Origin: Latrodectus hesperus
Lineage: Eukaryota > Arthropoda > Arachnida > Araneae > Theridiidae
DNA: 64,000 nucleotides
Assembly (NCBI GenBank): GCA_037975125.1
Contig: CM075860.1
Coordinates: 20,028,822 to 20,092,821 of the forward strand
Direction: 5' to 3'
Positions within the stretch are counted from its first letter, which is position 1, and each line of letters starts with the position of its first letter. The notes under the pieces were generated by a model. That model saw only the letters and a program-made list of their open reading frames with translations. It was not told the DNA's origin and made no database searches. Made by a program: the position numbers and the translations under genes. Positions 5,401 to 26,011 of the stretch are shown in pieces.

Positions 5401-6059
5401 CTGTACACGTAAGTAGGTAAGCGTTGTCTTACACTACTACCTCCAGTCTGGGAGATGACGAGAGGAAAATGATCGCTGTTATGCAGATCATTTCCTACTA
5501 TTAAATTTAACAATGGCAGAAGAGATGGAGAACAAATGGCCAGATCGAGAGAGTGAAATGTTCTTGTGGGTACATGGAAATATGTCTTCTCGTCGGTATT
5601 AAGCAGACAGAGACTATTATCTGAAATAAACCGCTCTATCTGCCGACCGCGAGAATTAGTATCATCACTTCCCCACAAAGAACTATGGCCGTTAAAGTCA
5701 CCTAACAACAGAAATGGTGTTGGCAGCTGATCTATTAATGCATCGAGTTCCTCTTGGCGGATGACATCATGTGGTGGTAAATATAAACTACAGACTGTTA
5801 ATAAGCATGCAGTATGAATTCTTACAGCAACAGCCTGTAGAGTAGTATTCAATGGATGGGCAGTGCTGGGAAAAGTATTAGATGTTAATATACAAACACC
5901 TCCAGACACTGCACCATCGTCACCACAGTCTTTTCTAAAGCTTTTAAACCCACGCATGGAAAAGTTACTGCTGGACTTCAGGAATGTTTCCTGAAGTGCA
6001 ACACATGCGGGGTTGTAGGCTGAAATTATAGACTTGATGTCATCATGATGAGAACGCAA
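2412..6059 (-). CDS. Retroelement ORF2: endonuclease-RT-RNase H (copy A, intact)
   Basis: The product (1215 aa) performs target-primed reverse transcription in the nucleus. The N-terminal 210 residues are an APE-type endonuclease, with ALQETFL, LLGDFNGHSSLWG and NSDHFPLV. The RT follows, with SSYRPIALTSCLCKTLERM, FFDIEKAYDRTW (motif A), GVPQGSILSVTLF (motif B) and YVDD near residue 656. RNase H begins near 952, with the acidic set D956, E989, D1013 and D1067 and the His of IPSHMGLEGNERAD. The C-terminus has a CETC-x7-H-x4-C knuckle near 1156. It starts 29 bases after ORF1 ends. No stop or frameshift interrupts it, unlike the copies in D, G, H and I. Confidence 0.95.
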   Translation of the reverse strand: MRSHHDDIKSIISAYNPACVALQETFLKSSSNFSMRGFKSFRKDCGDDGAVSGGVCILTSNTFPSTAHPLNTTLQAVAVRIHTACLLTVCSLYLPPHDVIRQEELDALIDQLPTPFLLLGDFNGHSSLWGSDDTNSRGRQIERFISDNSLCLLNTDEKTYFHVPTRTFHSLDLAICSPSLLPLLNLIVGNDLHNSDHFPLVISQTGGSSVRQRLPTYVYSRADWTLFTQLAVIDNEMVTIDDIDDAIYKVTEAILNAADVSIPKSSFTTHRRCKPWWNKECQQTYRKQRKLWGLFRRYPTTENLIAFKRAKALARRARRRSQKVSWSRYVSSITSSTSSKQLWRRVKAANGIYREFSIPILKSGAAIYSSPKDIANVLGETFASVSSNDSYSPSFLRTKSRAERTPIRFNHGQALPYNCEFRMLELRRALQQAHDTSPGPDGISYQMLRHLSPDSLLNLLFLYNRIWTENQFPSLWSEAIVIPILKANKDPSVPSSYRPIALTSCLCKTLERMVNARLVYVLEKNKCIHINQSGFRKGRSTLDNITYLETQIRNAFVRRNHLVSIFFDIEKAYDRTWRYGILRRMYDFGFRGNLPIFIQNFLRSRGFKVRIGTLLSNTFNQPEGVPQGSILSVTLFNIHINTILHQLSPPVHGTLYVDDLQISCEGSNMNLIERQLQTSVNKIAAWCAENGHTLSPSKSNCVHFCRKTSLHNDPVIRINRTLIPVVSAVKFLGVIFDRKLTFLPHILYLRKKCERSLNILKVLSNTSWGADRTSLLRVYQSLILSRIDYGCVVYGSARSSVLRRLDTIHHSALRICSGAFRTSPVQSLYVICHQLPLDLRRMQQSLNYYSKIMSTHDHPLRSMVPNASLKKLYDSRSLSIPPFLTRAKSHLWLTDLCDVRIESIDQFLYPPWYEPTNTFINTFAQFKKSDTTPIVFQQLYTSHRCQYQSYKPVFTDGSKTAGHVGCGIFTNNTDFNYSLHPSCSIFTAEATAIYYALQHVNTDDYHQYCIYTDSMSIIEALKNNSVICHPVVSRIFKALDSLAGKGKEIVFCWIPSHMGLEGNERADAAAKAASDPILPSVPLSDVRKTIKIFIYGLWQESWNLQVVNKLHTIFSSLISLSVLPVRSADVRLTRLRIGHTRFTHRHLFLNELNPWCETCDEPYTVYHILISCPDFNQQRLHFFKTDFIILFDIIGDPPHKNLFAFLRAIGFIHYI

Positions 6060-6088
6060 ACCATGGCAGTTCCAAGAAACAAAGGAAG

Positions 6089-7264
6089 TTATTTTTGAAA
6101 TTGAAAAGCTCCTTTCCCGGAGCTGGAAGGCATGTCATCTGACATCTCCTCGAGTGACAGATCTTCGTCCGAGGGATGTAGATATACGGCGTCAGCCTCC
6201 AGGTTTAAGGCTTTACGGGTGGATATGGAGGGCCTAATAATGCCCTCTTTTGCTGATTTTAGTTTTAAAGCCTTTACGGCTTTAGATTTAGCCATTGGAG
6301 CTTTTCTACGGAGAGTGGTTGCAGATGTTGTTTTTGACTTTTTCTCAGATGTAGGGGGTAATTTAACTATTGGAAGTGAAAGAGCATCCGTTTGCGTACT
6401 AGCCGTTCTGGTGACCTTGGCGGCGACAGATGCATAGCTAACTCCTGCTTGAGGTGTGCGTGCCATAACAGCACGTCTTGCCTCAGGATATGAGCAGTTA
6501 TTCTTAACTTTGGTGGTAGTGATCTCTTTTTCCAGTATCCAGATAGGACAAACTCTAGCGTAGGAGGGGTGGTCACCCTTACAGTTGACACACCTCTCCT
6601 TTGCAGTACAAGACGAACTGTCGTGGCCAACTGCTGCGCAGCGAGCGCAAGTCAGTTTGCCCCTGCAAGCCGCTTTAGAGTGACCAAATCTCTGGCACTG
6701 GAAACAACGCAAAGGATTTGGTATAAAAGGCCTGACGGATAGATGCATATACGCAGCTTTAATATGCTGCGGTAGGTCTGGCGTCGCAAATGTCAGGATT
6801 AGATGTTTAGTATTAATAACTTTATCATCTCTCCTGACAGTGATGCGTTTTACAGCACAGACCTTTTGATCTTTGAGATTTTCTAAGATCTCGTCCGTAG
6901 GCGTATTTAGCAAATCCCTGGCGGATACCACACCACGTGAAAAGTTAAGATTAATATGAGGTTGGACAGACACCTCAAGGTTAGCAAGCATGTTCATGCT
7001 GCTTATAAGAGTAGCTTGTGCTTCTGAAGCAACTTCGACCATTAAATCTCCAGAACGCAGCTTTCGAATGCTCTTCACTTCGCCGATATTGCCAGAAATA
7101 CCTTTCTGGATCAGGAAAGGGGATACATTATCAAAAGTACCCTCTTTCCGTTTTACAATGTAGAATCTTGCTTGTACTATTGTCAAAGTGTGCTCCCGTG
7201 GGAGAGAAGAGAAAGTATTTGTTTCCATATTATAAATGGAAAATTCGGGACCTGACGGCACCAC
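6089..7264 (-). CDS. Retroelement ORF1: Gag-like nucleic-acid-binding protein (copy A)
   Basis: 391 aa. The N-terminal half contains a fold-like region conserved in all copies (KEGTFDNVSPFLIQKGI, SIRKLRSGDLMVEV) that probably mediates assembly. Three CCHC-type knuckles lie in the middle, in the stretch beginning LRCFQCQRFGHSKAACRG and continuing CARCAAVGHDSSSC and CVNCKGDHPSYARVC. The tail is Lys- and Ser-rich, with an acidic end (SDEDLSLEEMSDDMPSSS). The family role is to coat element RNA and deliver it to the target. The start is the ATG at 7264; an ATG 36 bases downstream (METNTFSSLPREHT) aligns with the start in other copies and may be the true start. Confidence 0.9.
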   Translation of the reverse strand: MVPSGPEFSIYNMETNTFSSLPREHTLTIVQARFYIVKRKEGTFDNVSPFLIQKGISGNIGEVKSIRKLRSGDLMVEVASEAQATLISSMNMLANLEVSVQPHINLNFSRGVVSARDLLNTPTDEILENLKDQKVCAVKRITVRRDDKVINTKHLILTFATPDLPQHIKAAYMHLSVRPFIPNPLRCFQCQRFGHSKAACRGKLTCARCAAVGHDSSSCTAKERCVNCKGDHPSYARVCPIWILEKEITTTKVKNNCSYPEARRAVMARTPQAGVSYASVAAKVTRTASTQTDALSLPIVKLPPTSEKKSKTTSATTLRRKAPMAKSKAVKALKLKSAKEGIIRPSISTRKALNLEADAVYLHPSDEDLSLEEMSDDMPSSSGKGAFQFQK

Positions 7265-7912
7265 CCACCACCGAGTCCAACAAGGGGATGCAGACCAGCT
7301 GCACCAGTGCTAGCCAGGTCCTATACGCTCACAGTACATCCCTGAAGTGGCCTCCACCCTTAACGAGTCACCCAGTAGATGTACCGATCGCTTGATCCAT
7401 AAAGCCGATTGATGTGCTGAGGACCACAACACACCTCCCGTTTACCTGAAGCAGAGGCCAAAGCAATGTGTTGGTCTCCGGAGGCCTCAATTACCAGGAT
7501 CCTCCTTTCCAGGGACACGGGTCTCCACGCACGGCAAACACGTGGGTGATTTAGTCCTCAAGAGTAGCTAATAGCAACAGAGCGGCGAAAGCTACTCAAG
7601 GGGAGCCCTCAACCTCTTACGAGGCAACCACACTGAGGGAGAAGAGGAAGAAAAAGCAGAAGAGTAGAGTAGAGAGGAAAAGAAAGAAGAGGACAGATCA
7701 CTGGGGCACCTCGGGATTGTGACACCCGTGTTTACCTAAAGAAGGTAAACCCCCTGAGGGGCGGAGACAAAAGAACGAACCGGAGCCAGGATGTGACATT
7801 CCTTTCGTACAAGGAAAATGCAAGTCTTTTTTCCGAGCCATTCATATTGCGGATCTGCGAACACAAATTGAACACAATGCGAACACTCATTACACTGTTT
7901 GTTAAAGGTGAA

Positions 7913-8444
7913 GGTTGGTTGGTTGGGTTTTATGGCGCAAGGTCCAAAAATGGACATGCTGCGCCAAGAATAAAGTTTTGTAAGAGTATTTTTTTATTTA
8001 TTATTATTTTTTTTACTCATTTGTTTTTCATATATATACATTTAAACCCAAGCAACATTAAAATATTAAAACACAAAAACTAGTGTATAAGTCATCTTAA
8101 AATGTTTATTTTAAATAAAATAAATCAAATATATATAAAATCTTAAAATGTAAAAATATAAATCATATAAAATTTAAAAAACCTATTGCTCTCAAATAAG
8201 CAAATAGGTTTTTGTGGGGTGGCTCCCCCAGCAAATCAAATAGAGTTAAAAGGTTTGTTTTAAAAAATTTAAAACGGTAGACGTTAAAAGTAGAGCATGA
8301 TATTAAAATATGATAAACAGAAAATGGTTGATCACACGCCTCACACCATGGATTTAAATCACTTAAAAACAAATGTTTGTGTGTGAAACGTGTGTGTCCG
8401 ATACGAAGGCGAGTTAATCTAACATCAGCACTTCGTAACGGTAA
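7913..8444 (-). mobile_element. 3' fragment of the non-LTR family (B), left border of the viral block
   Basis: The fragment carries the TTGG tail, the terminal hairpin, the AT-rich 3' UTR and the last part of ORF2 (8163-8372, including the CEACDQPFSVYHILISC knuckle). Similarity to copy A stops at 8444, and the next base belongs to the stop codon of the first viral-type gene. No target duplication matching the far side of the viral block or of fragment C was found. The fragment was therefore truncated by a rearrangement or by the viral integration. Confidence 0.85.
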
Positions 8445-8672
8445 CTATTGAATTTTCATAGCAGCTATGATGTCGTCCATCCGTTCACACGTGTAACGGT
8501 ATTTGAAATATTTGAACACTGTAATCGATAGCAAAGCTACAAAAATGACTATCGTGAGAATGATGAAATGGAAATAACAATGCTGTGATTGAATCGTCAA
8601 AACGCCAATAGAGTACAAAAGTCCACCAGCCAATGTCAAGATTCCAAACGGTTCGAGTTGTCCCACGTTCAT
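8445..8672 (-). CDS. Small two-pass membrane protein
   Basis: 75 aa starting MNVGQLEPFG. Two hydrophobic segments are visible, about residues 9-27 and 36-55, followed by a basic, charged C-terminus. Its ATG overlaps the stop of the upstream gene in an ATGA, so the two are probably co-expressed. Its stop codon lies exactly at the junction with retroelement fragment B. I do not recognise the family. Small double-membrane-span proteins are common among envelope genes of large nuclear arthropod DNA viruses, but that assignment is by context only. Confidence 0.55.
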   Translation of the reverse strand: MNVGQLEPFGILTLAGGLLYSIGVLTIQSQHCYFHFIILTIVIFVALLSITVFKYFKYRYTCERMDDIIAAMKIQ

Positions 8673-8986
8673 TCTGATTCAAGTAAGCGTTTGGCTAGAA
8701 CCAAGTTTTTGTACACTTGATTCCAGAAAGACTCATGAAGAGCTAGTGACTGTCTCAGTTCGAAAGCAAATGATTCATACTGTGGAAGCGTGACCGCAAA
8801 TCCGATAATGGTCGAAGGCATATCGGTAAGTGCTGTTTGACCACGTAAGAAATTTTCCACTCGTTCATAAATTTCAGACCATGGTTCGGATTCAATTGCT
8901 ACAGCGACTTTGGGTGAAACGGAATAGAAGAAATGAATGATTCCAGATAAAGTGGTGTCTACGATTTCTTCGCAAGAACGTGTCAT
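8669..8986 (-). CDS. Hypothetical protein, viral block
   Basis: 105 aa if translation begins at the ATG at 8986. An in-frame ATG at 9010 would add eight residues, but the bases between the two contain AATAAAGAGAACC, the TAAAG motif seen before several other genes here, so I prefer the inner start. The product is soluble-looking and predicted mostly helical, with one Cys (CEEIV). It ends in ATGA overlap with the two-pass membrane gene. No family recognised. The divergent neighbour at 9080 starts 93 bases away. Confidence 0.55.
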   Translation of the reverse strand: MTRSCEEIVDTTLSGIIHFFYSVSPKVAVAIESEPWSEIYERVENFLRGQTALTDMPSTIIGFAVTLPQYESFAFELRQSLALHESFWNQVYKNLVLAKRLLESE

Positions 8987-9079
8987 GGTTCTCTTTATTT
9001 CTGAACACATATTTCATATTTTCCATTTAAAAGGAACGTGCGGAAGATTGACAAGCTCATTCAAAAGTAAAGAGATCAC

Positions 9080-9361
9080 ATGGAAAGACGTGTAGAAGAT
9101 ATTCTCCAAGCGGACGACCAAGATAAAGTAACTGATTCATTTGGATCCTTCGAACGTTCACTTGCTCTGCTGGTGTTTGGTATTTCGTCTTTACCAGTCT
9201 TGATTGTTACGATCGTTTTCCAGTTTGCTCATCAACATTTATACAAGACACTTGTCGCATCTGTGCTGTTTGCTCTCATCTTGTTCTTTGTCATTCATTT
9301 TCGATTCCAAGACATTGTGTTTCTTGTGAACAAAATTCAACATGCACGAATACGAATTTAG
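9080..9361 (+). CDS. Small two-pass membrane protein upstream of lef-4
   Basis: 93 aa. The first ~25 residues are acidic and charged (MERRVEDILQADDQDKV). Two long hydrophobic helices follow, at about residues 27-48 and 57-75, then a short basic end. GTAAAGAG lies 13 bases before the ATG. The 3' end overlaps the presumed start of the LEF-4-like gene by 20 bases in another frame, a compact arrangement typical of a viral genome. The family is unknown; an envelope role is inferred only from the membrane helices and neighbours. Confidence 0.55.
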   Translation: MERRVEDILQADDQDKVTDSFGSFERSLALLVFGISSLPVLIVTIVFQFAHQHLYKTLVASVLFALILFFVIHFRFQDIVFLVNKIQHARIRI

Positions 9362-10513
9362 ACTGGTCGTGAAGAACGAGTCCAGTCTCTTTCCAATCTT
9401 ACAAGATTTGCCGACCACCAAAGAATGCGTCTATTTTGCCAAGCCACATTTTCGTTATCGTCGTGGAAAGTTAGAAATAAAAAAATCGTCGATGTCCAGG
9501 CCGTATACCACGATGGATTTTGGTTTAAATGGGTTCATTCGATTGAATTGCCGTTTGAAAGATGGCCGAAAACGATTCATGAAAAATTTATCAACAGTAC
9601 TGGAAATGCACAAGACGCGTTTCAATGCCAAGTGAGAAAGCACGTTCAATTGGACGATTATGCTAAAGTGTATACTTTTTATCAAAATGGAAAATATCAA
9701 CTCGTTTTCGAATGGGAATACGGAATGTTTTCAGAAGAACCAAGTGTGATTCCTTACGATTGCTTGTTCGATAAACTTTCCGCATATAGGAGCATTTATA
9801 AACGTTTCGAGCCGTTCGAATACAAATGGTCCGGCCAATTGAACGAAACCATGACTAGAAAACGGGTCGAGTGTATTCGAGAACAGCCCGATCAAGAAAT
9901 GTTGGTCGCTCACAAATGGGACGGACGATTTGGTATTGTTTACAGTTACAAAGATCACGTTAAAGAAAAATGGGAAGGTCATCGACAAGCATTAATAACT
10001 GGTTTGTCACTCGGAGACGGATTCGCATTTGCGGCAGAACAAATGTCGAAAGATTTAATCATTTTGTTAGACGTGTATCAAGTACGAGGATGGCCGACCG
10101 CTGGATGGAATAGACGAGCCATTTTGATGGAATTTTTACCGAGTCTTCAGCTACCCAACGGATTTCGAGCACAATGTTACGCTAAACGTGTACAAGATTT
10201 AGTTTTACCCGCCTCGTTGAGAACGGATGGTTTCATTTACCATGATGTCGAAAAAGATATTGCGTATAAATGGAAACCAAAACATTCGATCGATGTTGTC
10301 TATCACAATGGCTATTTTTTAATGAATGACAAAAAATTCAAGTGTCTCGAGAATCGGGCCAAAATGAAAAATGGTTGTGTCTACGAAGTTTCCACTGAGA
10401 ATGGCAGAGTTTTACGAAGACGGCACGATCGTTTCACTGGGAACACAATGAACCAAATTGCCAAGATATTTGAATGTACAACTTGGAATGGACCAAAGAT
10501 AGAACATTTATAA
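9342..10513 (+). CDS. LEF-4-like mRNA capping enzyme (one frameshift)
   Basis: This would be the viral RNA 5'-triphosphatase/guanylyltransferase subunit of a baculovirus-type polymerase. The guanylyltransferase signature is full: HKWDGRFG with the nucleotidyl Lys (codon at 9914), a motif III-like LIILLDVYQVRGW, RTDGFIYH (motif IV) and YKWKPKHSIDV (motif V). Glu-rich strands typical of the metal-dependent triphosphatase are seen at the N-terminus (HEYEFRLVV) and at LVFEWEYG. The reading frame changes once near 9478-9486, in a run of seven A's. The first ~46 codons are in one frame and the rest, open from 9425, in the next. This is either a single-base decay event or an assembly error. Total length near 390 codons is somewhat short for LEF-4. 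A capping domain from another large DNA virus is the alternative. Confidence 0.75.
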
Positions 10514-10659
10514 AATATAATTTATATTTTGTATTTTTACAATTTTTATTTCTTGTATAAAATCGGAGATTTTTTGTGACAGAGCTCATTCTTAGTGCTG
10601 ACTGTGTTTCAAGCCATTGCTTATTTTTTGTTGCTCTGAGTTTGAATAGATAAAGAAAG

Positions 10660-11643
10660 ATGAATTACTCGAGTCTAGTGGAAAATGTCCTGGCCGTTCC
10701 GGCTCTTGCTAAAGCGATTCAAGACATGGAAGCTAAAGGATCAGCACTCAACTTGGTTCGATCAGACTGGAAACAAAGACTTGAAAATCATTTAACTTAT
10801 CAGCGATTCAAGAACCGTCAAGACATGTATCGTCCAAGGAAGAAAAATTCCTATTCTGAATCACAAGTTTTAATGAATCCCGAAAACGATAAACTCAAGT
10901 TGATCATCGTGGGTAATTGCTTGATTAGTCAACCGTTTGACAAGAAAACGATGGATACGAGTTTTTCAATCTTTATGAATGATTCTGAACCTTTAGAGAT
11001 GGCATCCAAAGCCATGACGGCTGATGTGAGAGACTTCACATTCGTGAACGAATTCAAATTATTCATGAATAATTGCAACGCGTTGTCTTGTCGATTGTGT
11101 TTAAAGTCCAGGAAATTCTTCGAAAATTTTGGATACGTTTTGCCATACGACAATCCGTGTATAAAAACGACATTTGTGTTTGATGGCGAAAACGTTGTGG
11201 CTCGATTTGGAACACTGATGAAAGACATTTTCAAATCAAGATTTTTGGCAATTCTTGAAGTCCATCTCAACATGAGATATTTCTTCCAAAGAGACAATAA
11301 ACAAGTGGTTCGAGTTGGTGGCCAACTGGCTAAGATCATCGGATTTAATGAAGACAAGCTTGCTGAAGAAGAAGAAATATTCTTAGGAACATTGGAACCA
11401 GTGAAACCAATGGATCAGGAAGAAGAAATAAGAGATGAAATGTTGAGTAGACCATTATTCGAAGAATATGATGAAGTCGTCAGCAATAAGCGAAGTTTGG
11501 AAAACGATATTTTGATTGAAACAACGGTTGACAAATCAACGGCATTGTTTGAAGAAGAAATAATTGAAGCCATGCCAAAGTCGTGTAAGAAACCTCGATT
11601 CCAAGACGAAGTCATAGTAGAAGAATCATTCATGAAAATCTAA
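10660..11643 (+). CDS. Hypothetical protein with acidic tail, viral block
   Basis: 327 aa. The start is fixed by an ATG preceded by GATAAAGAAAG. The N-terminal third is basic and rich in Lys/Arg. A central stretch, CNALSCRLCLKS, with a further Cys about 20 residues on, could bind metal or form disulphides. The last 90 residues are strongly acidic (EEEEIFLGTLEPVKP, DQEEEIRDEM), with a KKPR patch near the end. I do not recognise the family. It lies 146 bases after the LEF-4-like gene on the same strand; its length is like that of a major capsid protein of this virus class, but no motif supports that. Confidence 0.55.
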   Translation: MNYSSLVENVLAVPALAKAIQDMEAKGSALNLVRSDWKQRLENHLTYQRFKNRQDMYRPRKKNSYSESQVLMNPENDKLKLIIVGNCLISQPFDKKTMDTSFSIFMNDSEPLEMASKAMTADVRDFTFVNEFKLFMNNCNALSCRLCLKSRKFFENFGYVLPYDNPCIKTTFVFDGENVVARFGTLMKDIFKSRFLAILEVHLNMRYFFQRDNKQVVRVGGQLAKIIGFNEDKLAEEEEIFLGTLEPVKPMDQEEEIRDEMLSRPLFEEYDEVVSNKRSLENDILIETTVDKSTALFEEEIIEAMPKSCKKPRFQDEVIVEESFMKI

Positions 11644-11911
11644 ACAAAAAAAATTAATAAATAAAAAATAAAATAAAAAAATAAATGAAAAATAAAATAA
11701 TAAAATAAAAAAAATATTTTTTTTTACTTGTTATATATACATAACTTCTTTTAATCTTCATTGCATTTACTTTCGTGCTTTGCTGGAATTAAGTCATCGG
11801 ATCCAAGTCTTTCATAGTCTATGACGCTTTATTTAAGATTGTCTTGGCTTACTGAGAACACGTTTCTTCTATCTTTATGAAACATTTTATTTTGCATTGG
11901 CTTTGTCCATC
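11644..11911. other. A/T-rich intergenic spacer between convergent genes
   Basis: The first ~75 bases are A-rich (AATAAA repeated many times) and contain several possible poly(A) signals for the upstream plus-strand gene. The rest has no ORF of note. It separates the plus-strand gene ending at 11643 from the minus-strand gene ending at 11912. Confidence 0.6.
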
Positions 11912-12805
11912 TCATCCAAACAAGCAATCAGCCGTTCTTCCGCCTTTCAACACGCTCTTCTTACTATACGATTCCGGAATGTCGTTCAAAGTTACACGTT
12001 TTTGCATGATTTCTTTGGGAACCGAGTTGACCACTTCATCCAAGTATGATATGTGACACCTGTCCGCGCCAAAGACGACCAATGGCAATGGATGAGAAAC
12101 GTCTTCACTAGCGACAAGACCAATGCCTTTTTTCCATTGCGTGTTGTACACAATTGGATCGAGAACTTCACCAAATCCAAAATGATGAGAAAATATGCAC
12201 TTGCTCAAAAAGTACAACATGCACGTATCCAGACCGTGAGCTTCGACCACTTTATTATTTTCATTGAACAAAGCTATTCGGCTTATGTATTGATAATAAT
12301 GTTCCGTTTCAATTCTCGTTTCGGAAATTGCCGTCTTGGAATGAATCATGGACAGAGCTTTTGACATGAGACGATCCTGTCCTTCGTATGGTCCCAAGTT
12401 GGCGTTTTTGCCACCGGCTGACATGTTACGAATCGTCTCAAGCACGTATCGATGGCAAACTTGGAAATCTTTCCGATTGGCAATCTGGCGCATGAATTCT
12501 TCAATATGTGGATTCATCGTGTACTGGACGTCGTCCAATTGCTTTGGTTGAGAATGATAATGCTTGTCGAAAAATTCGCGTGTTGGAATGATGACACAGT
12601 TTCGCTTAAATATTGTCCCTTGAACTGGTTTGAGAAAGCCACCGACGAACTCGTGGCTCATTTCTGTTTCGATGACATAATGTTCAAGCTCGAGACCATA
12701 GATCTCACGCAAATGTTTGGCACACATTAGATGTGTAATGTGTGTCCGCTTCTTGCCAGAGCATTCAGCCTTGTTAAAATTAAAGATGCACGTTGTCGAT
12801 TCCAT
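11912..12805 (-). CDS. Hypothetical protein, weakly SET-domain-like, viral block
   Basis: 297 aa. The N-terminus has Cys/His residues (TTCIFNFNKAECSG, THITHLMCAKH) followed by LREIYGLELEHYVI and IFKRNCVIIP. This order loosely resembles viral SET-domain proteins, where a zinc-binding lead precedes a YGL segment and the domain's first strands; the key substrate-binding residues are not convincing, so this is a weak inference. A GIGLVASEDV segment lies near residue 230. The gene is head-to-head with the membrane gene at 12821, and AATAAAGAGAC immediately precedes its ATG. Otherwise unrecognised. Confidence 0.5.
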   Translation of the reverse strand: MESTTCIFNFNKAECSGKKRTHITHLMCAKHLREIYGLELEHYVIETEMSHEFVGGFLKPVQGTIFKRNCVIIPTREFFDKHYHSQPKQLDDVQYTMNPHIEEFMRQIANRKDFQVCHRYVLETIRNMSAGGKNANLGPYEGQDRLMSKALSMIHSKTAISETRIETEHYYQYISRIALFNENNKVVEAHGLDTCMLYFLSKCIFSHHFGFGEVLDPIVYNTQWKKGIGLVASEDVSHPLPLVVFGADRCHISYLDEVVNSVPKEIMQKRVTLNDIPESYSKKSVLKGGRTADCLFG

Positions 12806-12820
12806 GTCTCTTTATTAAAG
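12806..12820. promoter_or_regulatory. 15-bp head-to-head intergenic region with TAAAG on both strands
   Basis: Only 15 bases, TCTCTTTATTAAAGA-like, separate two divergent start codons. Read leftwards it gives AATAAAGAGAC-ATG and read rightwards TTATTAAAG-ATG, so each gene has its own TAAAG motif overlapping the other's. It probably holds both transcription starts. Confidence 0.5.
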
Positions 12821-13411
12821 ATGATGCTAAAGAGCTTTGTGAAAAAGAAACCACGTATCAATAAAGAGTTTGGTGCATTCGATGTCAAAGTAAAGAACAA
12901 AAGACGTCTTCGTAATCTCTTGAACAAGGACAGTAAATTACGTCAAGTGACCAAGACCGTTTTCAGCAAGAAAGGCATGACGGCTGTGGCTGCAACAACC
13001 GTTTTGGGAATTGGTGTCAGCAAGATCATCGAATACATTGAATCCAATTCTGGCTGTTTCCTCAAGAAAATCGATGGTGAAGTTTGCAAAGTGCAATCTC
13101 TTAGTTGTTGTCAACCTGAAGCCGTCGAAGGATTATCATTTTGCAAGAACATTGATCAAGATTTGAATCAAGCTTGTCACGGATTCGATGAAGAGAAAGA
13201 ACAATCATGTTGTCGATTGTGCGACTGTGAACACTATGGTTGTTTACCCGGACAAGATATGGAATGTCGTCGTCCAACAGTGGCTGAAGCACTTTCTTAT
13301 TATGCTCAAGGCGCTGCAAAATCCTTGTTCAATTGGATTTGGATACCATGGCTTTGGATTATGTGTTCATTCTTCATCGGATTCATCGTGATTCGGAAAA
13401 TAACAAGATGA
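12821..13411 (+). CDS. Cys-rich membrane protein, possible envelope/PIF-type protein
   Basis: 196 aa from the ATG at 12821; an upstream in-frame ATG at 12731 lies inside the divergent gene and is unlikely. The N-terminus is very basic. A hydrophobic segment (about 54-72, AVAATTVLGIGVSKII) precedes a region with twelve cysteines between residues 79 and 149, and a Trp-rich C-terminal membrane helix spans about 171-191. The Cys-rich domain between two hydrophobic segments recalls per os infectivity factors such as PIF-5 (ODV-E56) of nudiviruses and baculoviruses, but I cannot confirm that family by eye. The stop overlaps the next gene's ATG (ATGA). Confidence 0.6.
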   Translation: MMLKSFVKKKPRINKEFGAFDVKVKNKRRLRNLLNKDSKLRQVTKTVFSKKGMTAVAATTVLGIGVSKIIEYIESNSGCFLKKIDGEVCKVQSLSCCQPEAVEGLSFCKNIDQDLNQACHGFDEEKEQSCCRLCDCEHYGCLPGQDMECRRPTVAEALSYYAQGAAKSLFNWIWIPWLWIMCSFFIGFIVIRKITR

Positions 13412-13908
13412 TTGAACAACTGAAACAGCTGTGTATTCCCAACGACAATTTCATGAAACAAGTAAGACAAGATTTGGATCTCGATGAGATTCCACACGTC
13501 AGAGCACCCTTTGAACCATTTGAATCTTTGGTCACGTACGAACTGGTTCAAAATCCTAGAGTCAAGACGATTGCGCGAGCGTACATAATCCAATTGCTAA
13601 AAGACAAGGAGAATTTGGGCTACTTGTATTTTCTCGATGGTCAGCAAATGACGACGCCATTGAACATTCAAGTGAATCCAGACATTGTGATAGAATGTCG
13701 TCGAAGTCATCAAATAAAGCAAATGATCGATGACTTGGCTGCTGAAATTGCTTGCAAAAATTCTAGTACGTACGACATTACGAGATTAGAACTCTTGTAT
13801 TTTTTCGTTCGGCTTGTGAATCCACACTTGAATTGGATTACGGTCGATTTTGTGTTACAAGGAAACAAGAATCATGCTCATCTTGTAAGAGCTCAAGTCA
13901 CCAAGTGA
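13408..13908 (+). CDS. Hypothetical protein, viral block
   Basis: 166 aa from the ATG at 13408, which overlaps the stop of the Cys-rich membrane gene. An in-frame ATG at 13333 would overlap that gene by 79 bases and is less likely. The protein is soluble-looking, with an acidic and aromatic N-terminal part (DLDLDEIPHV, FEPFESLV) and a hydrophobic C-terminal third (LELLYFFVRLVNPHLNW). Unrecognised. The ATGA coupling suggests one transcript with its neighbour. Confidence 0.5.
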   Translation: MIEQLKQLCIPNDNFMKQVRQDLDLDEIPHVRAPFEPFESLVTYELVQNPRVKTIARAYIIQLLKDKENLGYLYFLDGQQMTTPLNIQVNPDIVIECRRSHQIKQMIDDLAAEIACKNSSTYDITRLELLYFFVRLVNPHLNWITVDFVLQGNKNHAHLVRAQVTK

Positions 13909-14445
13909 ACCATATTTTAAGAATGATAAGAAAGAAGACTATCATGCACTTATTCGTGAAGAATCAACAACACACCCGATTTTTATCCGACAGTATAAGT
14001 ACTATCCGTTCTTTGTCGAACATTGCTAGAATCTATTAAAACATGTCTCTGGTCTGTGCAGAACTTGTTCGATCGGTCAATAATCGTGATCGCTTTGTCA
14101 AAAATATCCATTAGATAAGATGGGAAAAACATTTCATTAACTCGAAGAATATTGAAAGACAAAACAATTAGTTAAAGTATTAACAAAAAGTAACGAGACA
14201 TATAATAAGTGAAAAAAAATAAAAAATAAAAATAATATGTGTATTATTTTTATTTTATTTTTTTTTCACTTATTATATGTCTCTTGTATTTTCCTTTTAT
14301 TTGTCTTCTCTTTTTCAACATTCTTCTCATCAATGCCTCGTTCAAGTTCTTTCAGCAAGTTGTATTTTTTGGTTCTTCATCAGTGATCTTCCAATGGTTC
14401 CAGATAAACAAGTCTTCAATTCTTACTTTATTAGTCCTTGTGTTC
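13909..14445. other. Intergenic region between convergent viral genes
   Basis: It contains only very short ORFs (for example 13922-14039, basic, 38 codons, and a 23-codon frame at 14043) and the large hairpin at 14195-14283. Both flanking genes end here, so transcription termination and polyadenylation are likely functions. The short frames may be the decayed end of a lost gene. Confidence 0.5.
14195..14283. repeat. 89-bp near-perfect hairpin between convergent genes
   Basis: The left arm begins GAGACATATAATAAGTG at 14195. Its complement, ending CACTTATTATATGTCTC, lies at 14267-14283. The A/T tracts between differ only in length (8 versus 9, and 6 versus 4 bases). The arms are about 43 bases and the loop is 4 bases (TGTG, 14238-14241). 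The position suits a bidirectional terminator or a palindromic replication/enhancer element like viral homologous regions; the sequence does not distinguish these. Confidence 0.8.
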
Positions 14446-15672
14446 TTACATGATTGAACAAGACGAATCGCTCTCACTGACATCATCGTCTTGTAATCGA
14501 ATTCGATTCACGAAATCTTTTTCTTCTAGTGTCATGATCAATGTGATTTCGTCTTCTGTTAATATAACGGCTTCGTTCTTTGTCGGTTTTGTATCGATGT
14601 TTATTCGAAAGCAAATCTTGTGTTTCGCAAGTACGAGAGCAAGCTTGAGAACATCTGATCTCACCATGATTGATTGATTGTAATGTCGTGTAAAGAAACT
14701 GGTCCATTCCTTTACGAGATACGGTAAACGTAACTGTTTCGCATAAGCGTCTATGTCCTTTGCTTTTGTCAAGCACCAAGCTCCGAATGGCACGTCTTTG
14801 AATGCGACACGATGCAATGAGAATTGGCTGTTGAGCCTGAATGTTTCAATCACTTGAATTCTACGATCTAAATTCAGTGTCGATTCGTTCACTGGTGTCA
14901 AAAGATATTCTACATTGTTTTCGTGAAACCATGACGCACGGCCTTCTAGAACGGGCTCTCCGAAACAAAAGAATGAATCCAGATAGACAAAACCAATAAC
15001 GACAGCATCGATGGTCACTTTGATCAAATCTTGAGGCAATTCCAGCACGTCTACTACGAAAGATACGGGCGTCCAGCACGTCGACGGAACGTGATTGTAC
15101 TCGATGAAATGTTCGTATGGTTGTAGAATTTCGATAACTGTGTTTGGACGATTGCCGTTGACGGAGATGGCTATCACTTGTTTATTGTCAGATGGTTTCA
15201 TGCGCATGCCTTCGAATGTTATTTGAAACGGCCATTCCATAATTAGTCCCAAGTCTTTCAGATCCCGTTTGGCTTGGTGATGAAACGATACCAGCACATC
15301 ATGAATCAAGCAATGAGGTCGAGTTGCACTTTGACGTTTGTAAACTTGACCATGTGAAACGAGACTCGTGTCTGGAAACTTGAATTCTCGAACAGGTTGT
15401 ACGTCTAGAAATTTTTGTGTTACGATTGAACAGTCCGTTGGAAATGGGATCTCTAGAACGTTTCGTCGATTCTTCCATTCGGACGCGACGGGCGCAACGT
15501 GTTCGGCTGATTCACTTGACAAGAAACACAAACGATACAATCCAGTGTTATAATTATTATTCGTGTCGAAAAAACATTTACCCGGTTGAGGAATATCTTG
15601 TTGGTCAAGATATAAGATGCAATTCTTGTGTGGGTAAAAATGTTCATAGGCTGGACGGACAATACCTTGCAT
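14446..15672 (-). CDS. Hypothetical protein, viral block
   Basis: 408 aa from the first ATG at 15672. The open frame extends to a TTG at 15765, but a GATAAAGAAC motif lies inside that extension, about 60 bases upstream of the ATG, which supports the later start. No transmembrane helix or clear motif is visible. The middle is rich in aromatic residues and the C-terminus is acidic (DDDVSESDSSCSIM). Its size is near that of the P47 polymerase subunit of nudiviruses and baculoviruses, but I see no motif that would justify that name. It is convergent with the gene at 13408 and divergent from the RING gene. Confidence 0.55.
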   Translation of the reverse strand: MQGIVRPAYEHFYPHKNCILYLDQQDIPQPGKCFFDTNNNYNTGLYRLCFLSSESAEHVAPVASEWKNRRNVLEIPFPTDCSIVTQKFLDVQPVREFKFPDTSLVSHGQVYKRQSATRPHCLIHDVLVSFHHQAKRDLKDLGLIMEWPFQITFEGMRMKPSDNKQVIAISVNGNRPNTVIEILQPYEHFIEYNHVPSTCWTPVSFVVDVLELPQDLIKVTIDAVVIGFVYLDSFFCFGEPVLEGRASWFHENNVEYLLTPVNESTLNLDRRIQVIETFRLNSQFSLHRVAFKDVPFGAWCLTKAKDIDAYAKQLRLPYLVKEWTSFFTRHYNQSIMVRSDVLKLALVLAKHKICFRINIDTKPTKNEAVILTEDEITLIMTLEEKDFVNRIRLQDDDVSESDSSCSIM

Positions 15673-15835
15673 GTAATGATCCACAATGCTGGGATCTCGA
15701 ACAAAATATGATGTCGCGTAAATTCTTCTGAAATGTTCTTTATCTGAAACAGAATTTATAGTCAAGTTTACGCTCTAATTATTTTTCAGGACATACGCAA
15801 AGTGTCTAATGCAATTGTGCATGCGTCGATTAGCA

Positions 15836-15870
15836 TATATAAGTCAGCACGTTTCTCCGCCAGAATCATT
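15836..15870 (+). promoter_or_regulatory. TATA-initiator promoter of the RING gene
   Basis: TATATAAG at 15836-15843 is followed, with its A 32 bases from the first TATA base, by TCATT at 15866-15870. This matches host RNA polymerase II core spacing and gives a leader of about 11 bases before the ATG at 15879. Unlike most neighbours, no TAAAG precedes this ATG, so it may be an early gene read by host polymerase. Confidence 0.6.
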
Positions 15871-15878
15871 CTGCCAAA

Positions 15879-16373
15879 ATGCCTTACGATCAACGTATTG
15901 TTGAGCTTTTGAATGAAATTATCGAGCGTCAAACTGTAATTGACGAAAATCGGAATGAAATTTTTAGAAGTTTAAGTGTTATTCAAATTATGATTGCCAC
16001 TCATAATTCAATTAGACGTCCAAGACTTCGACGCTTGACAACACAAAGACAGACTAGACGCCATAGAACTAGATCGCGTCCGTCTCCAGTTCAACGACAA
16101 AATTCTCCAGTGGAAAATGTGGACGTCACTGAAGGAAGTTCATATTTAACACCAATTGAAATTGAAACGTTACTTGAAACGACCTTTTATTTGCGAGCAA
16201 TGGAACCAAGCAATGATTCGTGTCCAATTTGTTTATTGGATTTTGAAAGAATGGAAGACGTCAAACATTTGCAAAACTGTCAGCATCTGTTTCATGATCG
16301 TTGTATACGGGAATGGTTGAATCTCAGCAGGAATTGTCCAGTTTGTAGAGAACCAGTTATGGGAAATCAATAA
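15879..16373 (+). CDS. RING-H2 finger protein (probable E3 ubiquitin ligase)
   Basis: 164 aa. The first 45 residues form a likely coiled coil (ELLNEIIERQTVIDENRNEI). An Arg-rich linker follows at about 46-75. The C-terminal RING is complete: C115-x2-C118, C134-x-H136, H139-x2-C142, C153-x2-C156, the C3H2C3 RING-H2 pattern. Trp146 sits in IREW, where E2-contacting fingers have an aromatic residue. The family transfers ubiquitin from an E2 to substrates, and RING proteins are frequent in large arthropod DNA viruses. There is no membrane helix. The compact intronless frame and its position support a viral copy; capture from a host is possible. Nothing appears broken. Confidence 0.85.
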   Translation: MPYDQRIVELLNEIIERQTVIDENRNEIFRSLSVIQIMIATHNSIRRPRLRRLTTQRQTRRHRTRSRPSPVQRQNSPVENVDVTEGSSYLTPIEIETLLETTFYLRAMEPSNDSCPICLLDFERMEDVKHLQNCQHLFHDRCIREWLNLSRNCPVCREPVMGNQ

Positions 16374-16517
16374 GTTCGAAACAAGATGGTTTTTTTCTTC
16401 TTTTTTTAGACCATTTAGAAAAAAAAGATAAGGAAAAGATAAGATAAGATAGGGTAAAGAAATGGCGGAACTTCGCCATTTTTTTACGACGGAATATTTG
16501 CCAACTTTGAATTATAT

Positions 16518-16931
16518 TCATTTCGAACATCCACTGCATGGTTCCATGGAATTTAAAGGTTTGTCCACTATACGACTGTACAAACGACAAGAGTTGCAAT
16601 CATGCCATTTGTTACCACCATACAATTGGACTTGGTTTCTTACACTTCGAACGAAAAGCTTTGATGGATTCAAAATGTAAGAATGATATTTACACGTGTC
16701 TGGACCTTCTTTGTTTCCGTACGAAAATGGACATGTACTGAGATGATATTCGCCAGGATAAACTTGAACCAATTTGATTTTAACATTTGGTGAGTGTTGA
16801 GACACCGTTTGTGCCATGATTTGGAATCTTGAAATCTTCGAAAGAAACGTGAGCCGATCGATTTGATCTTCATTCAACAATTCTTGTTCTAAAGAATCGA
16901 GCAAATCATCAACATGATTTGTGGCACCCAT
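16518..16931 (-). CDS. Small protein with a possible zinc ribbon
   Basis: 137 aa. The N-terminal 45 residues are acidic and helical (DDLLDSLEQELLNEDQIDRL). Six cysteines lie downstream, the last four as C112-x2-C115 and C132-x2-C135, the spacing of a zinc ribbon; C67 and C80 may belong to a second site. Zinc ribbons at the C-terminus are known from the TFIIS-like factor LEF-5 of baculoviruses and nudiviruses, but this protein is short and the match is only in layout. A shorter plus-strand ORF (16462-16680) overlaps it and has a TAAAG before its ATG, so the coding strand is not fully settled. Confidence 0.45.
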   Translation of the reverse strand: MGATNHVDDLLDSLEQELLNEDQIDRLTFLSKISRFQIMAQTVSQHSPNVKIKLVQVYPGEYHLSTCPFSYGNKEGPDTCKYHSYILNPSKLFVRSVRNQVQLYGGNKWHDCNSCRLYSRIVDKPLNSMEPCSGCSK

Positions 16932-17012
16932 TCTTCTTGTTTATTGACAAGAAAAGCTCGTTCGAAGGAAGACAAGAGAAGAACGTAACGTCCTAATAAA
17001 CGTCTTCTCAGT

Positions 17013-18563
17013 TCACATTTTATTCATCACAAACTTTTCAACCAAATGTTTGAACGATTCTTCCGACATCAAGTCTGTGTGATGCAAAACGTGTAACACA
17101 TCTTTTTCCACAACCAAGTCTCCATCAATTAGACGACCGAGATAGTCCACGTGTAAACCTTGTAAATTGTACACGCTTTTCGAATATCCGTATCCAGGTT
17201 CCCAAATTTTTCCAGTCTTTTTCAAAGCTTCATTGGCCGTGATGGCGTGTGCTACAAACTCGATTGGATTCAAGCCTTTCCAAAAACTACTGGCCACGTC
17301 TATTCCGCTTTGCCAACCAACTCGTGCAAACATTTGGTACAAATGTTCAATGGATCCTTTCGCTCCCGAAATGACTTGAGTGATCAAGCATTCTTCTTGT
17401 TTCTCAAGAGCGACACGTTCAAATTGTTCCGGTTCTATCTCGGACAAGCGAATCATTTCTTTTAACGTGAGAGCAAAACATCTTTTCGTTTGAAACGCAT
17501 CAAGATAAAAAGTTCTCAATCGATCAAAACAACGGAACGATTCTTCGGATCCGTACAAATCATAAATGACGCGCATGGTCTTGGTTAAATCTCGACATTT
17601 GTACGGCAAGAAATCGATCTCATCATAAAACAAGGAGAATGCTGCCAACATGTCTTGACTCGGTGATAGTTTGATTCCCATGACAAAACAACCCATTTGC
17701 ATCTGTGGATTCAGAAGCGTAGCACATTCCGCTTGTGATTGAACGTTGGGCACCATGTACACGTTACACTCGTCTCCATCGAAATCAGCGTTCATGGCTT
17801 GAACGATTTCCAGTGGAATACCAAAGCAATCGTGCGACCATGCTTGAACTCGAAGACCAACAAAATTTCCTGGTTGTAAAGATGGCATACGGTTCAAAAT
17901 AATCCATTTGTCATTCAGTCCGAACATTTTCACAAAACGATCTGGAATTTTGATCTCGTTTGGACGTAAACTTGCATCGGGTACGATCATTCCTCTCATG
18001 GATAACGTGCATCTTTTTCCAAAAGCGACTTGTCTGATCAACGTAGCTTTACCACAAGATCTTCGTTGCAAGCTTCCATAATTTAAAGGCGCTTCTTGAA
18101 TTTGCTTGTAGAACAAATCCACTTTACTGGTCGGCAAAATATTACTTGTTCGACTTGTCACTGGAAGACGACTGACAAATTTCATGACTTTCTCGTAAAC
18201 GAGTGTTGAAGCCACTTGCCAATAAATTGGATCCGGAACAATCAAAAATTCTTGGTTTGATTCGATTTTAGCGTTCTTCATCATACGTTTCAACTGAGGC
18301 AAGACAAATTCGAAATCTGGTGTCGGAATGGCAATTGACTGGACTGAATAATTGGTTGTTCGACCATCGTAATAAAATGAATCACAGCACGTTGTCCAAG
18401 CCGCTTCTGTAAATTCAAGATTTTTGTGACAATTCAAACATTTGGTTGCAAACTCGTGTCGTTTTCTCCAAGCTTTCAAAATAGCAATGAATTCGGATGG
18501 TTTCTTTTTTAATGGATACGATTCCAATTGCAAAAGAGACAAGGAATACTTTTCAACAGCCAT
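17013..18563 (-). CDS. LEF-9-like RNA polymerase large-subunit homologue
   Basis: 516 aa, intact. It would be the catalytic beta'-type subunit of a viral DNA-directed RNA polymerase for late genes. NADFDGDECN at residues 258-267 supplies the three metal-binding Asp (260, 262, 264). Just before it are NRMPSLQPGNFVGLR and a segment ending FGKRC-x-LSMRGMIVPDASL, in the order of cellular RPB1. CLNC at 42-45 and CC at 59-60 may form an N-terminal zinc site. The length equals that of baculovirus LEF-9, far below the >1400 aa of cellular, poxvirus or asfarvirus RPB1, hence the name. A split RPB1 from another virus group is the alternative. GGATAAAGC directly precedes the ATG. Confidence 0.75.
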   Translation of the reverse strand: MAVEKYSLSLLQLESYPLKKKPSEFIAILKAWRKRHEFATKCLNCHKNLEFTEAAWTTCCDSFYYDGRTTNYSVQSIAIPTPDFEFVLPQLKRMMKNAKIESNQEFLIVPDPIYWQVASTLVYEKVMKFVSRLPVTSRTSNILPTSKVDLFYKQIQEAPLNYGSLQRRSCGKATLIRQVAFGKRCTLSMRGMIVPDASLRPNEIKIPDRFVKMFGLNDKWIILNRMPSLQPGNFVGLRVQAWSHDCFGIPLEIVQAMNADFDGDECNVYMVPNVQSQAECATLLNPQMQMGCFVMGIKLSPSQDMLAAFSLFYDEIDFLPYKCRDLTKTMRVIYDLYGSEESFRCFDRLRTFYLDAFQTKRCFALTLKEMIRLSEIEPEQFERVALEKQEECLITQVISGAKGSIEHLYQMFARVGWQSGIDVASSFWKGLNPIEFVAHAITANEALKKTGKIWEPGYGYSKSVYNLQGLHVDYLGRLIDGDLVVEKDVLHVLHHTDLMSEESFKHLVEKFVMNKM

Positions 18564-18675
18564 GCTTTATCCTAAAACGCGTCGTGGTGATGAGTACTAT
18601 CCAGGTAGAGGCTTTTCTCGTAATCCTTTAACAAAGGACCAAGTGTACGCCCGTGATCGCTCAGATTTCTCTTAA
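18562..18675 (+). CDS. Short basic ORF at the right viral border
   Basis: 37 codons with a hydrophilic, Arg- and Tyr-containing product (MLYPKTRRGDEYYPGRGF). Its ATG overlaps the LEF-9-like ATG on the opposite strand (CATG). It stops six bases before the junction with retroelement fragment C, so it may be the 5' end of a truncated gene or chance. No TATA or TAAAG is visible on its strand. Confidence 0.25.
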   Translation: MLYPKTRRGDEYYPGRGFSRNPLTKDQVYARDRSDFS

Positions 18676-18680
18676 TCAGC

Positions 18681-19897
18681 TGGTTTTCGCTCAGCACGAC
18701 TCTTAATCTTTAAAAACGAAGAACTATAAGAGTCGGAGCTTGAAACATTAGCAAAAGTTTCACCAAGGACATTAGCGATTTCTTGAGGTGAAGTGAATAA
18801 AGCAGCTCTGGACTTCAAAATGGGAATAGAAAATTCCTGATAAATCCCATTAGCCGTTTCACTTTCCTCCATAACTGCTTACAAGGTGTTGAAGATGTTA
18901 TTGAAGAGATATAGTTAGACCAAGATTCCTTCTGACTTCGACGACGGGCTCTGCGAGCTAATGCTTTTGCTCTCTTAAAGGCGATAAGATTCTCCGTTGT
19001 AGGGTACCTCCGAAATATCCCCCATAACCTCCGTTGTTTCTTATAGGTGGTTTGACACTCAATATTCCACCATGGTTTGCGATGCTGATGTAATTTAGAG
19101 GAACTTTTGGGAATTGATGCTTCTGCAGCTGTAATAATTGCTTCAGTGACTTTATATACTGCGTCATCAATACTCTCTATCATAACCATTAAATCCGTAA
19201 TAACTGCTAATTGAGTAAATAATGCCCAATCTGCTCGACAGTACACGTAAGTAGGTGCAAGTTGTTGCACACTACTACCTCCAATCTGAGAGATGACATG
19301 AGGAAAATGATCGCTGTTATGCAGATCATTTCCTACAACTAAATTTAACATTGGCAGAAGTACTGGAGAACAAATGGCAAGATCGAGAGTATGAAACGTT
19401 CTTGTGGGTTCATGAAAATACGTTTTCTCGTCGGTATTAAGCAGACAGAGACAGTTATTAGAAATGAACTGCTCTATCTGACGTCCGCGAGAATTAGTGT
19501 CATTACTTCCCCACAAGGAATTATGACCATTAAAGTCACCAAGCAACAAAATTGGTATTGGTAGCTGATCAAGTAAAGCATCGAGTTATTCTTGGCGGAT
19601 GACATCATGTGGTGGTAAATACAAGCTGCAAACTGTTAGTAAACACGTTGTGTGCATTCGTACAGCTACAGCCTGTAAGTGTGTATTTAAAGGATAGGCA
19701 GTGCTGGGAAAGTTATTGGATGTAAATATGCATACTCCTCCAGACACTGCACTATCGTTACCACAGTCTTTTCTAAAACATTTATACCCACGCATGGAGA
19801 TATGGTTTGCAGACCTCAGGAAAGTTTCCTGAAAGGCAATACATGCAGGGCTATAAGCTGATGTTATAGATTTGATGTCATCAAAATGTGAGGGCAA
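18681..19897 (-). pseudogene. Truncated ORF2 endonuclease domain (copy C)
   Basis: The frame from 19897 encodes the APE-type endonuclease (MPSHFDDIKS..., AFQETFLRS). A TAA replaces a Glu codon at about 19586, just before the GDFN motif. It resumes as LLGDFNGHNSLWG and SDHFPHVIS, then drifts into another frame and ends at the viral junction. There is no RT. Dead. Confidence 0.85.
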
Positions 19898-19933
19898 ACC
19901 ATGACAGTTCCAAGAAATGTAAGGAGATTATGT

Positions 19934-21067
19934 TTAAGATTGAAAAGCTCCGTTCCCGGAGCTGAAGTGCATGTCATCTGACATCTCCTCGAGCGATAGA
20001 TCATCGTCCGAGGGATGTAAGGAAACAGTGTCAGAATCCAGGGATGAGGCTTTAAGGGTGGATATAGAGGGCCTAGAATTGCCCTCCTTTGCAGATCTTA
20101 GTTGAAAAGCCTTTAAGGCTTTAGATCTTGCCGTCGGAGCTTTTCTAAGGGGAGTAGTTGAGGAGGCAGATTTTGGCTTTTTCTCAGATGTAATGGGTAA
20201 TTTAGCAATGGGGAGTGAGAGAGCATCTGTTTGTGTACTTGCCGCTCTAGTGACTTTAGCAGTAACAGTCGCATAGCTAATACCTACTTGAGGTGTTCGA
20301 GCTGTAACAACCCGTCTCGCCTCAGGATAGGAACAATTATTCTTAACTTTGGTGGTAGTGATCTCTTTCTCCAATATCCAGATTGGACAACTTCTAGCGT
20401 AGGAGGGGTGGTCACCCTTACAGTTGACACACCTCTCCTTTGCAGATCAAGATGAACTGTCGTGGCCAACTGCTGCGCAGCGAGCGCAAGTCAGTTTGCC
20501 CCTGCATGCCGCTTTGGAGTGTCCAAATCTCTGGCACTGGAAACAACGCAAAGGATTTGGAATGAATGGCCTAACGGATAGATGCATATACGCAGCTTTG
20601 ATATGCTGCGGTAGGTCTGGCGTCGCAAATGTCAGTATGAGATGTTTTGTGTAAATTACATTTCCATCTCGTCTGACAGTAATGCGTTTTACAGCGTAGA
20701 CCTTTTGCTCTTTTAGATTTTCTAAAATTTCGTCCGTAGGCGTGTTAAGCAAATCCTTAGCGGATATCACACCACGTGAAAAGTTAAGATTTGTATGAGG
20801 GCAGACGGATACCTCAAGGTTAGCAAGTTTACTCATGTTGCTTATCAGACTTGATTGCTTGTCTGATGTGACTTCTATCATCAAGTCACCAGAACGTAAT
20901 TTTCGCATGCTCTTCACTTCTCCTATTGATCCGATAATTGCTTTATGAATGAGGAAAGGGGATACAGAGTCAAAAGTACCCTCTTTCCATTTCACCACAT
21001 AGTATTTTGCCTTTAAAATAGAGAACATATGCTCCCGTGGGAGAGTTGAAAAATTGATAGTTTCCAT
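19934..21067 (-). pseudogene. ORF1 of copy C, one nonsense mutation
   Basis: Same Gag-like protein as copy A, starting METINFSTLPREHM at 21067. A TGA near 20446 replaces the first Cys of the third CCHC knuckle region, splitting the frame into an N-terminal part with two knuckles (to 20447) and a C-terminal Lys/Ser-rich part (19934-20374). Otherwise collinear with intact copies, so recently lost. Confidence 0.85.
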
Positions 21068-25982: not shown

Positions 25983-26011
25983 ACAATGGCAGTTCCAAGA
26001 AACAAAGGAAG

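Follow-up and report, generated by a model that had tools for sequence, protein, structure and literature searches.

A truncated endogenous copy of a Naldaviricetes large DNA virus, most likely of a new lefaviral-type lineage, in the genome of the spider Latrodectus hesperus

The element described here is a block of virus-like genes at positions 8445-18680 of a 64,000-nucleotide stretch of the genome of the spider Latrodectus hesperus (assembly GCA_037975125.1, contig CM075860.1, C11:20028822-20092821; this whole stretch is called the window below). The closest described systems are the Nudiviridae of the order Lefavirales, including the endogenous nudiviruses of the brown planthopper and of parasitoid wasps. 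The likeness lies in the combination of transcription genes of the RNA polymerase type with per os infectivity factors (PIFs) and, for the endogenous members, in integrated, dispersed and partly decayed copies. Endogenous nimavirids are integrated in crustacean genomes. The Nimaviridae, as covered in the relevant part of PMC10271883, also share with the spider element the membership in Naldaviricetes marked by PIF-2 and PIF-5, but the spider element has, in addition, an RNA polymerase subunit and a capping-enzyme-like gene. The Baculoviridae-type elements of ixodid ticks resemble it as Lefavirales-assigned endogenous elements in a chelicerate; in the pertinent portion of PMC10675110, however, they are few (the family stands under 'Other', 10 or fewer), and no multi-gene block of PIF and RNA polymerase genes is reported there. 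The viruses of ant labial-gland disease, CjLGDV and AgLGDV (PMC12548425), have ant hosts and known exogenous genomes, whereas the spider element is represented by endogenous copies only, with no virion.

The evidence presented below indicates that the segment derives from a large DNA virus of the class Naldaviricetes, most likely of a new lefaviral-type lineage of spiders, and is an endogenous copy in truncated and rearranged form (probability roughly 0.86). The class is well supported; the assignment reaches class level, and membership in the family Nudiviridae is neither shown nor excluded. A nudivirus-like endogenous segment, possibly from an undescribed lineage, had been proposed in a preliminary description made from the letters of the window; the class is borne out by PIF-5 in the window and by PIF-2 beside the LEF-9-like gene of a sister copy, and the source virus is apparently an undescribed lineage indeed. 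Three differences set the element apart from the Nudiviridae. Its PIF-5 is about half as long, with a family median of 209 amino acids (aa) against 432-479 aa given for CmNV and CcNV in the section of PMC8472649 concerned; it gives no Pfam matches to LEF-4 or P47; and its named relatives come from spiders, whereas nudiviruses, according to the relevant part of PMC11728702, infect insects and crustaceans.

The class assignment depends on the two entry factors. The PIF-5 (ODV-E56)-like gene at 12821-13411 (plus strand) codes for a Cys-rich protein of about 196 aa with a C-terminal hydrophobic segment; its open reading frame (ORF) is open from 12731, and the start at 12821 is the probable one because of the starts in relatives. 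When the 31 sequences of the alignment were taken one by one, 15 matched Baculo_E56 (at E up to 1; best, 5.6e-4) and no more than two matched any other Pfam family, and when the profile of this alignment was compared with PDB sequences, the sole chain found at E up to 1 was PIF-5 (7x77; E 0.014), in collinear order. All five of the 30 PIF-5-like relatives that have organism names come from Nephila and Trichonephila. PIF-2 was found in a sister copy on contig C2, where a 277-aa ORF, 4.9 kb from the LEF-9-like gene, matches Pfam PIF2 above the cut-off (E 1.7e-7); the C2 sequence beyond this ORF is again common to the copies on C13 and C6. Such homologues mark the class Naldaviricetes, and none has been identified in other viruses according to the part of PMC10271883 that deals with them.

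The second line of evidence is the intact 516-aa protein encoded at 17013-18563 (minus strand), which carries the NADFDGDE motif, as previously described. A search of 5.8 billion proteins returned 92 matches. They comprise 77 relatives at 38-72% identity, one protein at 26% and a further group of 14, in which five carry archaeal names, one belongs to the Dikerogammarus virus DhV1 and the remainder lack an organism name. The DFDGD motif is kept in 76 of the 77 relatives. The best Pfam profile of the window protein is RNA_pol_Rpb1_2 (E 2.5e-14), not LEF-9, and Rpb1 domain 2 was matched by all 79 members examined (the window protein and the first 78 matches). Domain 4 was found in 46 of the 79 (29/45 and 17/34; best 9.4e-7), domains 3 and 5 in two each at E 0.005 or worse, and domain 1 in none, while 13 of the 14 other matches showed each of domains 1, 3 and 5, and none of them LEF-9. 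The RPB1 of nucleocytoplasmic large DNA viruses (NCLDV) is a multi-domain protein with Pfam domains 1 to 5, a composition that the 79-member family does not have. The structure model of the protein (mean predicted local distance difference test score, pLDDT, 84.7) can be superposed, over residues 178-516, at 3.0 A on archaeal Rpo1N, which bacterial subunits equal by Z (21 to 22), though with a root-mean-square deviation above 11. In the BFVD library of viral structures, LEF-9 of the Drosophila innubila nudivirus stood at rank 18 and an HzNV-1 polymerase at rank 19; among the 50 matches listed, the best geometry belonged to a LEF-9 fragment from a baculovirus (rank 26). The protein is thus a compact large subunit of an RNA polymerase, with the size and architecture of LEF-9. 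That much of the LEF-9 label given to it in the preliminary description stands; its identity as LEF-9 is likely, not proven, because the Pfam LEF-9 profile finds only two of the 79 members (at E up to 1, best 7.9e-5), and the window protein is not one of them.

This shortage of LEF-9 matches weighs against the reading given here, and so do several other observations. The window PIF-5 itself matches Baculo_E56 at E 7e-4, below the curated cut-off; the PIF-2 ORF of C2 lies outside the stretch that either the window or the C672 copy has in common with C2; P74, PIF-1 and PIF-3 were not seen among the ORFs scanned; and no scanned ORF matched a second-subunit profile, although no search was aimed at LEF-8. 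In BFVD, NCLDV RPB1 proteins headed the matches by E-value, above LEF-9. The C2 copy also contains a 1036-aa ORF (L113:2573-5683) with a D5-type DUF5906/VapE-like primase-helicase domain (E 3e-7), and a dUTPase (L112:7042-7590, E 3e-21) that adjoins an innexin (L112:7599-8471, E 7e-29). NCLDV also carry D5-type primase/helicases and dUTPases, while viral innexins are otherwise known from polydnaviriforms. The DUF5906 domain stands outside the Naldaviricetes core list in the relevant part of PMC10271883. Finally, the near-identical copies discussed below could be segmental duplications. The structural ranking, the primase-helicase and the dUTPase would be expected if the segment came from another group of large DNA viruses with a shortened RPB1, either an unrelated lineage or the NCLDV, for example a virus resembling the Mininucleoviridae. 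We consider such an origin very improbable, given the two PIF homologues and the near absence of Rpb1 domains 1, 3 and 5; moreover, the polymerase of DhV1 (779 aa), which we take to belong to the Mininucleoviridae, shows 29% identity over 32% of the query. The preliminary description had named RPB1-type best hits, together with a lack of Naldaviricetes hits among the neighbours, as grounds for giving up its view. The best hit of the 516-aa protein is indeed of that type, but the neighbours do give Naldaviricetes matches. Profile searches of the kind it had suggested returned PIF-5 in the window and PIF-2 in the C2 copy, little for LEF-9 and no match for LEF-4, and the reading as a Naldaviricetes segment is retained.

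The gene block is real and far from chance. It contains eight ORFs of at least 150 aa counted from ATG (516, 408, 362, 327, 297, 226, 186 and 164 aa), whereas shuffling with dinucleotides preserved, repeated 200 times, gave a longest ORF of 118 aa on average and of no more than 240 aa in any round, and any ORF of 150 aa appeared in 20 of the 200 shuffles. Altogether, 13 intronless ORFs are tightly packed on both strands, with 4-base overlaps of the ATGA type at 8669-8672 and 13408-13411 and only 15 bp between the starts of the 297-aa gene (12805, minus strand) and the PIF-5-like gene (12821, plus strand), which confirms the compact two-strand organisation noted earlier. The baculovirus late-promoter motif TAAG occurs within 120 bases upstream of two of 12 starts, compared with about three expected from its density.

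The segment is integrated in host DNA. The window lies within a contig of at least 20 Mb, with full-length long interspersed nuclear elements (LINEs) on both sides of the block, and copies are also present in contigs of 79, 110 and 128 Mb. At the left viral end the block abuts a host LINE 3' end piece (7913-8444, minus strand; other LINE copies in the window have 3' ends that are 69-92% identical to it). On the right, the agreement with the sister copies ends at 18659, and from 18681 to 21604 (minus strand) there follows the broken 5' half of a host LINE with 85% identity to window positions 4842-7764. In the C2 copy, a 199-aa ORF (L113:1328-1927) begins with what is left here as the 62-aa ORF at 18487-18675 (plus strand); a gene is thus cut at this border, and what lies in the host DNA is a fragment. 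Target-site duplications were not seen by eye at either viral border. Two full-length LINEs of the window (2168-7761 and 22071-27681) have duplications of about 14-15 bp, again by eye, and 3' ends of GGTT repeats. As far as it could be recognised, the rest of the window is mobile-element DNA, namely a transposase, a LINE family with many copies and a length of about 5.6 kb, and further fragments of reverse transcriptases, and nothing outside the block matched the 114 viral relatives used as queries at E 1e-3. The window copy is a truncated, rearranged relic: its LEF-4-like gene is split between frames, its 439-aa gene is incomplete and the copy breaks off at LINE pieces on either side. With both ends lost and at least two genes broken, it cannot encode a virus alone.

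A search of the whole genome (1,640,936,938 bases in 2,912 contigs) with the LEF-9-like protein gave eight matches. Four are full-length at 100% identity (C2, C13, C672 and the window), one on C6 has 84% identity and a stop, two are short decayed pieces on C85, and a short match inside a 1924-aa frame on C11 is presumably host RPB1. The LEF-9 genes of C2, C13 and C672 are identical over 1551 bases, and the window gene differs from each of them by four synonymous and no nonsynonymous changes. Larger stretches are shared as well: C2 and C672 have 6.8 and 5.1 kb in common at 99.6 and 99.9%, and C13 shares 4.9 kb with C2 but is rearranged beyond. Agreement of the window with C2 and C672 is confined to 15721-18659 (with C13, to 15981-18659), at 97%. 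Because this homology begins only at about 15721, inside the segment, the window copy is rearranged relative to the other three, the approximate junction lying in one or the other. A common left viral end of C2 and C672 was considered and rejected, because the apparent end lies where C2 meets an assembly gap of 500 bases. Next to the C2 stretch that holds the PIF-2 gene, four ORFs scanned in a further 10 kb (L119) gave no Pfam match at E 0.1.

The divergence between the window and C2, C13 and C672 is uneven along the segment, with four differing columns (gaps counted) in the LEF-9 gene, 26-32 in the RING gene and 30-32 in a 144-base spacer. Across 15879-16517, about 6% of the columns differ in the RING gene and about 22% in the spacer, compared with 0.26% in the adjacent LEF-9 gene. 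On this uneven pattern the window copy looks mosaic or recombinant in origin. One LINE family adjoins three of the viral copies, those of the window, C13 and C672; besides the two window pieces (7913-8444 and 18681-21604), the LINE pieces beside viral copies are L114:4700-7201, L117:5211-9900 and L116:1-2455 (C13, C672). This common LINE border, the small size of C672 (a 90-kb contig) and the rearrangement of C13 relative to C2 would suit an origin of the near-identical copies from one insertion, through recent segmental duplication, rearrangement linked to LINEs or duplication in the assembly, rather than by repeated viral integration. We regard this explanation as unlikely, though worth bearing in mind: the flanks differ, since C672 and C13 run into LINEs where C2 goes on into further genes including that for PIF-2; the C2 and C6 pieces read showed no match to the LINEs of the window; and the window copy, with a RING protein at 86% and a LEF-9-like protein at 100% identity, is a diverged mosaic and no simple duplicate.

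The intactness of the LEF-9-like gene raises the further question of whether some of these genes are retained and put to use by the host, like the nudivirus genes in parasitoid wasps. All four window differences are synonymous, which would happen by chance with a probability of about 0.004 if three quarters of random changes were nonsynonymous, and the near-universal conservation of DFDGD points in the same direction. Nevertheless, four changes are too few to show a host role, the relatives come from ORF collections that favour intact genes, and young copies look intact even without use. The broken LEF-4-like and 439-aa genes of the window, the stop in the C6 copy and the short decayed pieces on C85 also argue against maintenance. 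A host role for the copies is possible, but domestication as the explanation of the locus seems to us improbable, and the relic of an integrated virus is the preferred description.

The remaining genes of the block fit this description to varying degrees. The capping enzyme recognised earlier by its KWDG motif, and equated then with LEF-4, is present as a 362-aa ORF at 9425-10513 (plus strand), in which KWDG, DGFIY and YKWKP were read by eye as what we take to be guanylyltransferase-type motifs; its C-terminal part gives a sub-threshold match to Pfam mRNA_cap_C (E 0.15). A likely N-terminal part lies in a different frame, in a 97-aa ORF at 9342-9635 (plus strand) that begins with MHEYEFRL, has no Pfam match and presumably carries an RNA triphosphatase-type motif. 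With its N-terminus in another frame, the LEF-4-like gene is either broken here or affected by an indel in the assembly, and it shows no match to the Pfam LEF-4 profile; it is a LEF-4 candidate by its motifs. The 439-aa ORF at 14446-15765 (minus strand; 408 aa from ATG) lacks the first 95 or so residues of its full-length relatives, of which six were found, five of 533-549 aa and one of 372 aa, the one named coming from Caerostris darwini. In structure it weakly resembles a capsid-hub protein of baculoviruses that is probably Ac142, and its location near PIF-5 recalls the position of p47 in nudiviruses, with no Pfam P47 match; it is a candidate for an Ac142-like capsid-hub or a P47-like protein, neither being established. 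In the corresponding part of PMC8472649, pif-5, an ORF of 131-159 aa and p47 are neighbours in CcNV and CmNV, and pif-5 adjoins a fused p47-lef-9 in HzNV-1/2 (the HzNV assignment being inferred from the fusion mark). The ORF that overlaps PIF-5 by four bases in the spider element (13408-13908, plus strand; 166 aa) resembles in its C-terminal part a 169-aa ORF of the sister copies near LEF-9 (L113:2060-2569), 38% of a 58-residue stretch being identical, and the two, judged by this resemblance, are a small viral gene family. A 164-aa RING-H2 protein (15879-16373, plus strand; Pfam zf-RING_2, E 5e-13) has 86% protein identity to the C2, C13 and C672 copies, and a 137-aa Cys-containing ORF (16518-16931, minus strand) is 97% identical in these copies and 76% in that of C6. 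At the left end, a 75-aa hydrophobic ORF (8445-8672, minus strand; sub-threshold Pfam colicin immunity match, E 0.067) overlaps by four bases the next gene, of 113 aa (8669-9010, minus strand). Like the latter, a 93-aa ORF with hydrophobic stretches (9080-9361, plus strand), a 327-aa ORF (10660-11643, plus strand) and the 297-aa ORF (11912-12805, minus strand) are unassigned in function.

The relatives point to spiders as the hosts of this lineage. All 12 of the 77 LEF-9-like relatives with an organism name come from spiders (Oedothorax, Caerostris, Trichonephila, Araneus and Argiope). In a tree of the family made by a quick method from 79 rows, copies of Araneus ventricosus fall into three separate clades and those of Trichonephila clavipes and T. 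clavata into two each, which indicates that several lineages coexist in single spider species; such coexistence is in line with repeated endogenisation. In IMG/VR, neither the LEF-9-like single query nor the LEF-4-like one found relatives, and the alignments of the PIF-5-like and 439-aa proteins gave none either. The LEF-9 profile gave 23 loci there with partial RNA polymerase matches, and the one looked at (L001) has a 1069-aa ORF; in prokaryote genomes 80 loci were kept, archaeal by title among those checked. The NCBI taxonomy lists three unclassified Lefavirales and 18 unclassified Nudiviridae taxa, none of them spider-named, though some names give no host. No report of such elements in spiders was found in the literature covered, which leaves out Cheng et al. 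2020, and the papers mentioning both nudivirus and spider, judged by their titles, the openings of their abstracts and passages of PMC6950620 and PMC10542567, report no nudivirus-like elements in spiders.

The picture that emerges is that a large nuclear DNA virus of arthropods, presumably infecting spiders and forming virions, would have integrated into the germ line, its copies then multiplying recently by new infection, re-integration or host duplication. By analogy with its relatives, the LEF-9-like protein may form the large, catalytic subunit of an RNA polymerase that the virus encodes for its late genes, with the KWDG protein as the capping subunit of that polymerase, PIF-2 and PIF-5 as envelope entry factors and the RING protein as a putative host-modifying factor. 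A more far-reaching proposal, to which we give slightly less than an even chance, is that spiders carry their own lefaviral-type DNA virus family, the first chelicerate lineage recognised by PIF and RNA polymerase genes. This family would enter the germ line and be multiplied there; in the present genome, the three copies whose LEF-9 genes are identical would mark a recent burst on top of older, decayed layers. Its gene content, with a D5-type primase-helicase, a dUTPase and an innexin added to an RNA polymerase and PIF entry set of baculovirus type, would match none of the described families.

The few tick elements, as presented in the part of PMC10675110 cited above, mean that chelicerates were not wholly blank in this respect. 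A multi-gene lineage in spiders, if true, would nonetheless widen the host range of baculovirus-like viruses, and it would bear on their age, which is an open question; an origin near the arthropod radiation is discussed in the relevant section of PMC11654684. The near-identical endogenous copies would offer a system for studying the germ-line entry of large nuclear DNA viruses outside parasitoid wasps, and the short PIF-5 and the compact RNA polymerase subunit may show the minimal form of those machines.

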